This document shows positions 4,630 through 47,201 of a stretch of 64,000 nucleotides of DNA, in pieces (position 1 is the first letter of the stretch; each line of letters starts with the position of its first letter). Under the pieces are notes generated by a model. It did not search any database. It had not been told where the DNA came from and saw only the letters and a program-made list of their open reading frames with translations. Both the position numbers and the translations under genes were made by a program. This DNA comes from Methanolacinia paynteri (lineage in GTDB: Archaea; Halobacteriota; Methanomicrobia; Methanomicrobiales; Methanomicrobiaceae). The stretch is taken from assembly GCF_000784355.1 (NCBI RefSeq), contig NZ_KN360928.1, forward strand, positions 191,820-255,819. The letters are read 5' to 3'.

Positions 4630-4787
4630 TCAACAGGCAACCCTTGCGCAAGTCCGCTTCGCGTACACGCCCTGACCTCAGGGCTTTGCGCTATGGCGAT
4701 AGCCCGGCCTTTCGGCCGGGAGAGAACCCGGTTTAGGAAGATAGTGATAGACTTTCGGAGAGCAATAAGAAATATTTCCCGGCCGAG
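4630..4787. other. GC-rich, hairpin-dense intergenic segment
   Basis: Between the lipoprotein start and the 97-nt element lies a GC-rich block in an otherwise AT-rich gap. It holds GCCCTGA/TCAGGGC (4669-4684) and CCCGGCC-tttc-GGCCGGG (4703-4720), the second a strong RNA hairpin. Open frames crossing it are low complexity and not gene-like. It may be the distal part of a longer structured RNA continuing from the 97-nt element on the minus strand. No promoter was identified with confidence. Confidence 0.4.
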
Positions 4788-4884
4788 GCTCCCCGGATGG
4801 GGAGCGTCCAGGCCGGGTTATCATCATTAAGCAAATTTCGCAGAAATTTGCGCCCGGGCTGCCCCGGCAGGGGCTTATGCCCTT
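4788..4884 (-). repeat. 97-nt structured intergenic element, copy A
   Basis: Read on the minus strand it starts AAGGGCATAAGCCCC and contains three hairpins: GCCCC-tgcc-GGGGC (4861-4874), GCAAATTTC-tgc-GAAATTTGC (4831-4851) and GCTCCCC-atcc-GGGGAGC (4788-4805). The same hairpin order and flanking words recur at 46587-46683 on the plus strand, also in 97 nt. Copy A begins 39 nt after the stop of the last gene of the hydrogenase cluster and is in sense with it, so it may end, protect or process that transcript (inference). Confidence 0.7.
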
Positions 4885-4922: not shown

Positions 4923-5618
4923 TCAGATTTCCCCGAGATCGTGCTTTATCGACTGAATCACAAGCCTTATCAGGCCGAGCTGGCAATCGGTCTCTGCAAG
5001 GATGCAGATGAAGAGATCGCCCACCGGTGATATGATCAGCTTTCCCTGCGGGGTTTCGAGAATGAGCTGGGTTGAAGAGTCCATACCGAGATCTGCGGTG
5101 ATCTGGTTGGCGGACCTGACAAGATCCTCGGACAGTGCCGCGACCTGCTCGAAATCCGCATCTCCTGCCGAATGAAGGGCAAATCCTTCAAAGAAAAGGG
5201 AGACCGCCTTCACTCCCGGCTGTCTAAGGACGTTTTGAAGAGTCTTTTCAGAGAGAATCTCGTCGGAAGAATCTCCTGAAGAAGCCTCTCTTCCCTCTAA
5301 CTCAGATATATCAAAGCTGAAAGATCCCCTGACGAGAATATTCGCCTCGTCGAGTTCGTCATCAGTATATTTTTTCAGTACGCAGTCCAGAGATTCCTTT
5401 TTCAGGAGATTTTTGTATGCCTCCATGCCTGAAAGTTTAAGATCCCCGGCGGCATAACCGGCAGCAACAGGAGTACCTGCATCGGCGAGAACGAACCCCC
5501 TGGAATTATTATATTCGATTACAATGCAGCCTGTAAAATCCCGGCTGAGCTCAAAGAGTTTGTCCAGTGAAACCTCCATGCAGCCCACATGTTCCCCGGC
5601 CGGCAGAGATGCATTCAT
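4923..5618 (-). CDS. DUF2226-like plus roadblock/LC7 fusion protein
   Basis: This 231-residue protein has two parts. Residues 1-100 resemble the DUF2226/DUF4388 type of small sensory domain, with RDFTGCIVIEYNN, a GTPVAAGYAAGDLKLSGMEA segment and KKYTDDELDEANI. The shorter protein at 10810-11382 has the same pattern. Residues 125-231 form a roadblock/LC7 unit (VLRQPGVKAVSLFFEGFALHS, then LILETPQGKLIISPVGD). Roadblock proteins dimerise and regulate small GTPases or P-loop ATPases. The start overlaps the stop of the preceding roadblock gene as ATGA. It closes the hydrogenase cluster, and its partner is unknown. Confidence 0.75.
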   Translation of the reverse strand: MNASLPAGEHVGCMEVSLDKLFELSRDFTGCIVIEYNNSRGFVLADAGTPVAAGYAAGDLKLSGMEAYKNLLKKESLDCVLKKYTDDELDEANILVRGSFSFDISELEGREASSGDSSDEILSEKTLQNVLRQPGVKAVSLFFEGFALHSAGDADFEQVAALSEDLVRSANQITADLGMDSSTQLILETPQGKLIISPVGDLFICILAETDCQLGLIRLVIQSIKHDLGEI

Positions 5619-43994: not shown

Positions 43995-44945
43995 ATGACA
44001 GGATTTTACAGCCCAGAATGGCTCCTGGGACTGCTGATTCTTCCGGTCTGCTGGTATTATATCCGGAACTCCGCAAAGAAGAGAAAACAGGAGGCGATGG
44101 TATTCTCAAGGGTCAGTTTCCTGAAGAGCGCCCTTGGCGACGTCTCAAAATCCAAAAGGCCGAGGATACTGGTGATACTGATCCTTGCAGCAGTCGGTTT
44201 CATTTTCATCGGCCTTGCAGACCCGCATATTCCACTCGAACAGACAAAAGAGGGAGTAAATGTTGTTCTGGTTATCGACGATTCAGGAAGTATGCAGGCG
44301 ACCGACTACTCTCCCAACAGGCTTGAGGCGACGAAAAGTGCGGCTGAAGAGCTCATAAACGATCTTGATCCCAAGGACTATGTAGGAATAGTCGTCTTCG
44401 AATCGGGAGCCTCGACTGCAAGCTACCTGTCCCCTGACAAGGACAGTGTAATCGAGAATCTCGAGAATATAATGGAAAAGGACGGCGCAACCGCCATCGG
44501 TGACGGTCTCTCACTCGGGATAAATATGGCCGATTCGATCCCGAACAGGAAGAAGGTCGTAATCCTGCTCTCGGACGGTGTGAACAATGCAGGAGTGATA
44601 TCTCCGGATGAAGCCATCCAGTTCGCCAAAGACAGCGATATACAGGTATTCACCATTGGTATGGGTTCGGAACAGCCCGTCGTTATGGGATACGACTGGT
44701 TCGGAAACCCGCAGTATGCAGAACTCGATGAGGCGACCCTGAAGGAGATCGCGGACGAAACAGGCGGCAAATATTTCAAATCGGTCGACGACCAGACACT
44801 TAACGAGATCTACTCCAATATCAATTCGGAGATAAAGCGTGAGAAAGAGGACACCAGCATAGCATACCTCTTCTTCATAGGCACACTGGTTCTGCTGCTC
44901 GCAGAGATCTACATAAGATACGGGAGGGGGCGGATCATACAGTGA
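43995..44945 (+). CDS. VWA-domain membrane protein (BatA-like)
   Basis: A 316-residue protein with one N-terminal helix (WLLGLLILPVCWYYI), a second (ILVILILAAVGFIFIGLA), then a VWA domain (about 75-290). The MIDAS motif is complete: DDSGSMQATD, the threonine in KDGATAIGDG and the later LSDGVNNAG. A third helix (IAYLFFIGTLVLLLAEIY) ends the protein, so the VWA faces one side between anchors. The ATG follows the DUF58 stop by two bases. The next gene's start overlaps this stop as GTGA. Confidence 0.92.
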   Translation: MTGFYSPEWLLGLLILPVCWYYIRNSAKKRKQEAMVFSRVSFLKSALGDVSKSKRPRILVILILAAVGFIFIGLADPHIPLEQTKEGVNVVLVIDDSGSMQATDYSPNRLEATKSAAEELINDLDPKDYVGIVVFESGASTASYLSPDKDSVIENLENIMEKDGATAIGDGLSLGINMADSIPNRKKVVILLSDGVNNAGVISPDEAIQFAKDSDIQVFTIGMGSEQPVVMGYDWFGNPQYAELDEATLKEIADETGGKYFKSVDDQTLNEIYSNINSEIKREKEDTSIAYLFFIGTLVLLLAEIYIRYGRGRIIQ

Positions 44946-46522
44946 AAGCAAAAATTCTCCTTTTTTTGCTAATCGCCTCCATGCTGATCGTCGCCCCGGT
45001 TCTCGCGGACGATATCACGTTCACGACAGAACAGAGGGACTACTATTTCAATACAGGAGAGACCGCCGAAATTCCGATAGAATACCTGAATAATCTCGGG
45101 AATTCCGTCTCCGGCCAGATGATCTACACTACCGCCGAAGGAGTAAACTCGGGGGGATTCACGTACTCCAGTTCAAGTACTCACAGCACCTCGCTCACGA
45201 TTCCTTCAGGTACAGGAAACTTCTATCTTACCGGGCTTACATCCGATTCCGAAAAAGTAATCGATCTCGATATTTCATTCCAGTATTCGGAAGGAGGAAG
45301 TTCGAAGACAGTGACCCTCGGAACAATTACGGTTCACTTCACCTCAGATTCCACCGGGATGAACAGCCAGAATCCCCAAACCAGCAAGGAAAGTGCCACA
45401 TCCTCGTCATCCTCATCTTCGCAGTCTTCGGCATCCCAGCAGTACAGCACTACGATAAGCCAGATGATCGGAGGCTCCTCAACACAACAGGCATCATCGT
45501 CCCAGCAGGCACTGCAGAACAACCAGCAGAACTACAACTCCGACGCACTTAAAAGCCAGATGGAGGCAAGATCCAGTGAGATTGCGGAGCAGAAGGAGGC
45601 GCTCTCCGAGGTTCTAAAAAACGACGACCTGCTTAGCAAAGTCGAGGAAAAACTGTCGGAGGAAGGTTTCAAACCTGTGGACGATTCAGAATCGATCAGC
45701 CCCGAAAGCAGTACGGACGGCACATTTACGAAAGAGTACAGAAGCCAGGACGGAAGTTCGGTCACTCTCTCCGGAAATATCGAAAACGGGGAGGTTTCAT
45801 CAGCTGAAACGTCATTTGATCCGACAGAGCAGGAGAGCCTGATCCCCCAGAGCCTCCTGGAGAACACAACGTACCAGGGATACCTCAAATCCCTGACAAA
45901 TGACGGCTTTGCCTCAACATCGGCCTCGATAAATTATACAAAAAGCGAAGCGCTGTTCAACCAGACCTTTGCACCTGCTTCAGGTGAGGACAACGGTGAA
46001 AACAACCCGTTCATAAACGCAACACTAACAAATGACCTGGAGAACGTTACCTCGGTCCAGCTTACCCGCTATGCGGATTATTCGTGGCTTATTCCGGCAT
46101 TCATTATAATACTGGCCGTAGTTCTCTGCGCAGCCGGCTGGTTCGTCTATAACAGGTACTTCCGGAAAAACGAGGTTGAAGAGATCCTGCCTCCGGTTGC
46201 AAGAAAGCCTGCATTCAACTACAGGGAGTATGCAGAAAAGCTGCTCCGGGAGGCTGAAGGCGCCTTCGAAGAAGGAAACTACGTCATCGCATACGGTTTC
46301 GCCGGACAGGCCCTGAGAGTTTATCTTTCCAACCGCTATTACAAAGGAACCGAGATGACGAATGAGGAGATCTTTAAAAAGATTGCATTGAACAACGAAA
46401 CAAGATGGGCGGTAAAAACGATCCTCGACGATTGTGCAATGGTGGAGTTTGCAAAAGGAGCACCGGACACTGACAGATTTGAAGAGATCGTGTCATACAT
46501 AAGGAAGATGATTGCAGAATGA
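44942..46522 (+). CDS. BatD-like membrane protein with C-terminal cytosolic domain
   Basis: A 526-residue protein: signal peptide (LLFLLIASMLIVAPVLA), an outside beta domain (25-140), a long Ser/Gln-rich linker (145-195), a helical region with KEALSEVLKNDDLL and KVEEKLSEEGFKPVDD, then further beta parts. A membrane helix near 380 (LIPAFIIILAVVLCAAGW) precedes a cytosolic domain of about 120 residues with YREYAEKLLREAEGAFEEGNYVIAYGFAGQALRVYL, resembling a DUF4129-like or TPR-like helical unit. It starts at GTG, overlapping the VWA stop. It is the last gene of the operon; copy B of the 97-nt element begins 65 bases after its stop. Confidence 0.75.
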   Translation: MKAKILLFLLIASMLIVAPVLADDITFTTEQRDYYFNTGETAEIPIEYLNNLGNSVSGQMIYTTAEGVNSGGFTYSSSSTHSTSLTIPSGTGNFYLTGLTSDSEKVIDLDISFQYSEGGSSKTVTLGTITVHFTSDSTGMNSQNPQTSKESATSSSSSSSQSSASQQYSTTISQMIGGSSTQQASSSQQALQNNQQNYNSDALKSQMEARSSEIAEQKEALSEVLKNDDLLSKVEEKLSEEGFKPVDDSESISPESSTDGTFTKEYRSQDGSSVTLSGNIENGEVSSAETSFDPTEQESLIPQSLLENTTYQGYLKSLTNDGFASTSASINYTKSEALFNQTFAPASGEDNGENNPFINATLTNDLENVTSVQLTRYADYSWLIPAFIIILAVVLCAAGWFVYNRYFRKNEVEEILPPVARKPAFNYREYAEKLLREAEGAFEEGNYVIAYGFAGQALRVYLSNRYYKGTEMTNEEIFKKIALNNETRWAVKTILDDCAMVEFAKGAPDTDRFEEIVSYIRKMIAE

Positions 46523-46586: not shown

Positions 46587-46683
46587 AGGGCATAAGCCCC
46601 TGCGGGGCAGCCCTATGCTTAATTCGCTACGCGAATTTGCGCAGATGCGGTAAACCGGTTTGGACGCTACCCTCCCGGGTAGC
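46587..46683 (+). repeat. 97-nt structured intergenic element, copy B
   Basis: It starts AGGGCATAAGCCCC and carries three hairpins: GCCCC-tgc-GGGGC (46596-46608), AATTCGC-tac-GCGAATT (46621-46637) and GCTACCC-tccc-GGGTAGC (46666-46683). Compared with copy A (4788-4884, minus strand), the last stem changes one C:G pair to A:T on both sides, a compensatory change. Length is identical (97 nt) and the copy again lies in sense downstream of an operon. Family and function are unknown. Confidence 0.7.
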
Positions 46684-47201
46684 TCTAAAATATATTATTT
46701 TATGAAAAACAGGAGCAGGAGGGATGCCTGTCCATCCCGGCTGCGACCTATAGCTATGAGGGGGAGGGTTACAGGGAGAGGGAATCCTCCCCCTCCCTTC
46801 TGAAGTGAAGTAGCCATATTAATGTAGAATGTAGCCTCGCCCGGGAAAAAATCCAAATAAAATCCATCCTTTTTTCAATCAAAAAAATCCTTCAAAACAG
46901 GCTATAAAAAGGAAGGATAAGCTGGCGGATCACTCCACCGTTCGCCTCCCAAAATGAGAATATATTCTGATTGTTAATAAGTCCTTTTAACGATACAGCG
47001 GACTGGCAGGGAGATCAGTTGAAAATAACTTTTATGTGATACGATGCGAAAACTCTGCAAGTACAAAAGACCCCATTGCAGGTGGATGAATAAAAACGCG
47101 CCACTTATCTTTTCCTGCGCTCTCTTTCACACCGTATGAAAGCCTGAATCAAGGAAATAACGCCATTTATAAATTAACTGCTCAGGAAAAAAAAGAAAAA
47201 A
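46684..47201. other. Long intergenic region, no gene seen
   Basis: About 520 bases between copy B and the pyrophosphatase gene. The first 120 bases are G/C-rich with GGGGGAGG (from 46761) able to pair with CCTCCCCC (about 46787-46794). The rest is AT-rich, without an open frame that looks coding. No tRNA cloverleaf was found. The end of the pyrophosphatase gene is at 47202. Nothing else supported. Confidence 0.4.

Follow-up and report, generated by a model that had tools for sequence, protein, structure and literature searches.

What kind of element is the short structured sequence at positions 4788-4884, which recurs some 42 kb away behind an unrelated operon? The window analysed here, a stretch of 64,000 nucleotides from Methanolacinia paynteri, holds the two copies, A and B, for which the initial annotation described an RNA element of exactly 97 nt with three hairpins, possibly a terminator, a processing site, a stability element or a small mobile repeat. 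The genome of the window (G000; 2.79 Mb, window on contig C29) was compared with those of two congeners, G001 (2,843,290 bp, one contig), whose flanks align to the window's genome at 90-97%, and the MAG G002.

Copies A and B and the halves that face them

Both copies are indeed present at the positions and in the sense described, each following the final gene of an operon. They lie close behind the gene, at 38 and 64 nt from the stop codons (4923; 46522) and not at 39 and 65 nt. The three hairpins of each copy fold better than shuffled sequences (z = -4.0 for A and -2.9 for B), and the compensatory pair reported for the last stem is there, with GCTCCCC/GGGGAGC in A and GCTACCC/GGGTAGC in B. 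However, 97 nt is not a natural length. Copy A extends through the closing arm CTCGGCCGGG and truly spans 4778-4882, about 105 nt, whereas copy B lacks that arm: its X hairpin loses the closing arm after GGGTAGC and has CTCTAAAATA in its place. The equal length of A and B is a boundary accident, because A had been cut short and the last arm of B is gone. Each copy is faced by a partner half that runs in the opposite direction (4636-4720 for A, 46712-46799 for B). Both copies represent the left half of a larger unit in damaged or mosaic form, and the operons upstream of them are not special. The features are as follows.

4778-4883, minus strand: copy A, the a-X half of a unit (covariance-model match 4778-4882, 99.4 bits)
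4856-4882, minus strand: hairpin 1 of copy A (module a), GGGC-ATAA-GCCCC...GGGGC-A-GCCC (alignment and covariation)
4831-4851, minus strand: hairpin 2 of copy A, GCAAATTTC-TGC-GAAATTTGC (fold)
4818-4822, minus strand: GATAA junction box of copy A at the foot of hairpin X; in aligned halves GATAR lies between outer modules and hairpins and is the crossover point of module swaps
4778-4817, minus strand: hairpin X of copy A, CCCGGCC-TG-GA-C-GCTCCCC/GGGGAGC-C-TC-GGCCGGG (fold and covariation, helices 4-6)
4636-4720, plus strand: partner half facing copy A, with module b, a GATAG box (4698-4702) and a short X hairpin, CCCGGCCTTTCGGCCGGG (4703-4720) (sequence and module scan)
46588-46690, plus strand: copy B, an a-X half (covariance-model match of 79.5 bits, sequence)
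46712-46799, minus strand: partner half of copy B, with hairpin Y, a GATA-type box (here TATAGG) and module c (cY model match from 46713; G000:C29:238531-238617)
46760-46782, plus strand: G-quadruplex motif in module c', GGGGGAGGGTTACAGGGAGAGGG (pattern scan)
4923-5618, minus strand: gene upstream of copy A, 231 aa, Roadblock/LC7 domain
44942-46522, plus strand: gene upstream of copy B, of 526 aa and without a family assignment, at the end of an AAA/VWA operon

A composite unit with many copies in the genus

The full unit has about 235-300 bp and reads (module a or b)-GATAR-hairpin X - AT-rich spacer - hairpin Y'-YTATC-(module c'). It consists of two facing hairpin halves, of X and Y type, with a GATAR box at each 5' foot, at which the outer modules a, b or c are joined; X or Y is sometimes lengthened by optional Z/W hairpins. 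The order a/b-X...Y'-c' is constant at most loci in module scans of the three Methanolacinia species, with modules called by mismatch-tolerant patterns. According to the gene calls made in this analysis, these inverted palindrome pairs with their spacer are intergenic. A conserved reading frame in the units is unlikely, because loops and spacers vary in length.

Hairpin X retains a two-base TG bulge and a C/C mismatch in nearly all copies, and in hairpin Y one pair covaries between T-A, C-G and G-C with zero mismatches in 47 parsed copies. Module c, GGGAGGGGG-loop-CCCCCTCCC-NNNN-CCCTCCCCC, is a hairpin followed by a mirror repeat. On its complementary strand 44 of the 57 c-bearing units carry a G-quadruplex motif; by comparison, the sampled 464 kb contain six such motifs in all, and two of the six are themselves inside units. 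This motif and the mirror-repeat/triplex geometry (for example at 46760-46782 of the window) are conserved across several genera of the family.

A genome-wide search for further copies gave at least 42 matches to the a-X half in the genome of the window and similar sets in the two congeners, while the cY half has 37-40 matches, among the matches listed, in each of the three Methanolacinia genomes. There are at least 40-45 loci per genome, and about 40 gene-end gaps are occupied in each. A covariance model built from 23 copies was run against 232 genomes of the order and found many matches in the three Methanolacinia only; G009 has one strong match, and the matches in G014 and G017 are weak. 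In several further genera of the family, module b and the c-Y half are present one to three times per genome, and the loci inspected there have the same architecture; beyond these sister genera, no relatives were found among the 232 genomes. A pattern scan of public genomes, from which records of or near the window's own genome were possibly left out, returned only the congener MAG Zod_Metabat.358. Rfam gave zero matches in the window at the gathering threshold and zero over units at E ≤ 0.5 (five loci), and a literature search that covered few subscription journals found no paper on such repeats in Methanolacinia.

Of the outer modules, b (in the window at 4636-4720; about 65 nt) is conserved best, with further occurrences in G007, G012, G014, G019 and G011. 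G009, which belongs to another genus of the family, carries only one unit (L103, 6729-6930), and its spacer as well as neighbouring intergenic and gene sequence match the Methanolacinia locus L010, a similarity that suggests recent horizontal transfer.

Pairing, gene ends and a possible role in the cell

The initial annotation saw selection on RNA structure rather than protein. Among 91 distinct copies, 28 of the 29 modelled pairs are changed on both sides, and double-changed cells number 106 compared with 21.7 ± 3.8 in shuffles and are also far above slid controls, in an alignment fitted to the modelled structure, which favours that structure. Pairing is kept through dozens of double changes, and in this respect selection on structure rather than protein holds. 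The sense strand is another matter. In helices 1, 2, 4, 5 and 6 it has 27 G.U wobbles against 59 A.C mismatches (43 without column 4), and since these cells are not independent we claim only the absence of a sense G.U excess. Helix 3 was omitted because the register of hairpin 2 is poor in model R1 (43% paired). Selection on a sense RNA predicts the opposite and is not indicated.

The gene context was assessed against baselines from the 464 kb sampled. In the genome of the window 19 units are in convergent, 11 in tandem and 1 in divergent gaps (n = 31), whereas the 409 gaps of the sample divide into 65, 277 and 67. This convergent excess (19/31 vs 65/409) has a Fisher p of 7e-8, and of 1e-7 against gaps longer than 150 bp. 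The trend is the same, though weaker, in G001 (12 convergent, 7 tandem, 4 divergent) and G002 (6, 9 and 1). The unit begins at a median of 57 nt behind the stop codon, and the facing gene end has a run of at least five T before the unit in 64 of 93 cases, compared with 74/165 (45%) behind other genes (p = 3e-4).

A 3'-end RNA element in sense with the upstream gene, be it a terminator, an RNase processing site or a stability hairpin, was the main idea of the initial annotation. Strong hairpins, covariation and the short distance to stop codons are in line with it, the convergent preference often puts each half in sense with a gene, and bacterial REPs are able to work in this way (PMC3733652). 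However, hairpin X is followed by purines and not by T; a run of T≥5 follows within 15 nt in only 2 of 101 X hairpins, and a pattern scan found no intrinsic-terminator pattern at copy A or copy B. The purine tails rule out an intrinsic terminator. Archaeal termination, moreover, has been described as relying on a U-tract and aCPSF1, with no need of a hairpin (PMC8716108). The unit shares with these terminators the location at gene 3' ends, but it usually lies beyond the T-tract that most of the facing genes have of their own. With sense G.U not above A.C and with the orientation reversed at seven orthologous sites (see below), we consider such an RNA element unlikely. Among the options listed at the outset the small mobile repeat is best supported, and terminator, processing site and stability element less so.

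The unit could also be a retained topological insulator, whose putative gyrase- or protein-binding, BIME-like palindromes and G-quadruplex arm would absorb positive supercoils between converging polymerases. The strong bias for convergent genes would be expected of it, as would the G-quadruplex motifs in most c-bearing units against six in the sample, the conservation of module c across genera, the presence of a gyrase A (GyrA) gene in the genus and the persistence of a unit at orthologous sites while copy and orientation change. Yet in the 464 kb sample the majority of convergent gaps are without a unit, and the same bias is expected if insertions elsewhere are purged, as was argued for pneumococcal repeats (PMC3049150). 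A role as insulator is, on balance, improbable. It is tempting to go further and to think of a BIME-like system of its own, in which pairs of GATAR-foot palindromes with a G-quadruplex/mirror-repeat arm would be replaced and re-oriented at fixed convergent sites by a non-Y1 trans-acting enzyme and kept as a topological or transcriptional barrier, but we give this little credence.

Exchange of units and relation to known repeats

Where both flanks are orthologous, G001 nearly always holds a unit too (about 24 sites). At about 17 of these the two units point the same way, and in most cases the true orthologue comes out at rank 1-3 of 23; these units are mostly inherited. At seven sites (copy B, L011, L027, L033, L034, L042 and L043) the two units point in opposite directions and the orthologue is found at ranks 4-17 of 23, no closer than unrelated copies, and therefore the copy was replaced and not merely inverted. 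A site-specifically invertible cassette that flips in place between two GATAR/YTATC boxes, as copy B and L011 had suggested, would account for the seven opposite orientations, for the outer module kept and core reversed at L011/L119 and L029/L097 and for CCTATAGC, common to copy B in both orientations, but it is very improbable: simple in-place inversion is ruled out by the similarity ranking, outer modules change as well, and the c-X product predicted by an in-place flip was not seen.

Copy A has orthologues in both congeners, one at 97% in G001 and a degenerate copy in G002. It is retained in all three species, with b as partner half in two and c-Y in the third (G002). Sites exchange modules as well as entire units. 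Between L011 and L119 the outer a' module hardly differs but all sequence past the GATAR box does, so that module swaps break at this box; at L022/L148 a deletion fuses the GGGG of module a to the GGGG of c'. If a unit is absent in a congener, there is usually a rearranged flank or a leftover remnant, and the ortholog comparisons gave no clean empty site, target-site duplication or plain terminal inverted repeats.

From the observed family, its anatomy, its convergent bias and the replacement of copies, we conclude, with a probability of about two in three, that the feature is one half of a BIME/REPIN-like mosaic repeat that is non-autonomous and found throughout the genus, and whose units act at the DNA level. 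Palindromic single strands, as cruciforms or lagging-strand hairpins, would then be the form that is recognised and copied, with the GATAR/hairpin foot as the probable point of recognition and exchange. A trans-acting enzyme, or repair or recombination at palindromes, would move, replace or convert the units. They may be tolerated, rather than used, in 3' gaps, and would build up there because promoters are spared. The moderate copy number counts against this reading, as do the ortholog comparisons that gave neither a clean empty site nor a target duplication and the fact that no mobilising enzyme was found, and the retention of a unit through three species at some sites, as for copy A, would also fit a retained function.

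Bacterial REP/BIME and REPIN sequences with their RAYT are likewise intergenic imperfect palindromes whose 5' foot bears a short conserved box; they are arranged in inverted pairs about a spacer that is less conserved, form mosaics with additional motifs and are preferentially found in convergent and 3' gaps (PMC3116915, PMC3733652). In contrast, the Methanolacinia unit is archaeal, its hairpin foot is GATA followed by A or G and not the REP-type tetranucleotide GTAG/GGAG, and its halves are two different hairpins with long outer modules a, b and c. REP/BIME and REPIN usually exceed 100 copies, compared with the 40-45 or more loci seen here, and they are tied to RAYT, whereas Methanolacinia has no Y1 transposase gene: a search for PF01797 (Y1, RAYT/TnpA-REP) found none in G000, G001 and G002, with positive controls and two in G007. 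We did not file the unit as REP, because the GTAG-type foot and the RAYT gene are both absent. The absence of PF01797 in the genus also led us to reject a RAYT/IS200 origin; in a survey of HUH enzymes, the IS200 type was the only subclass found in archaea (PMC6006769). A TnpB-like gene (about 278 aa) that is not accompanied by TnpA occurs once in each of the three Methanolacinia species (L190, L191; G000:C29:394064-394255, G001:C1:72652-72843). It is possibly domesticated, and the surroundings of the two copies inspected hold no unit modules.

BOX elements of Streptococcus pneumoniae resemble the unit in interchangeable modules, tens of copies, convergent preference and variable size (PMC3049150), but they have terminal repeats common to an IS and tandem boxB arrays, in place of two facing palindromic halves, and are unrelated in sequence. 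Archaeal and bacterial MITEs are also short, non-coding, dispersed repeats that were probably moved in trans; the Methanolacinia unit differs by its modular palindromes, and plain terminal inverted repeats or target duplications were not found. The unit is a further variety of composite-palindrome repeats.

REP/BIME-type repeats have been described from bacteria, and their spread is linked to RAYT transposases. If a methanogen that has no Y1 transposase carries a comparable composite, this would imply another mobilising enzyme or a repair-driven spread of palindromes. The mechanism of exchange is testable, since the three species offer about two dozen natural before/after comparisons of sites. 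The repeats also have practical weight, because units are found at contig ends and at breaks of synteny in Methanolacinia genomes. Several contigs of the window's genome end inside units (C26:3-91, C8:2-72, C40:1-79, C5:45724-45810), and the repeats therefore probably broke the assembly. Synteny breaks between G000 and G001 are often located at units as well, as at L009/L134, L107/L184, L122/L186 and L113/L181.
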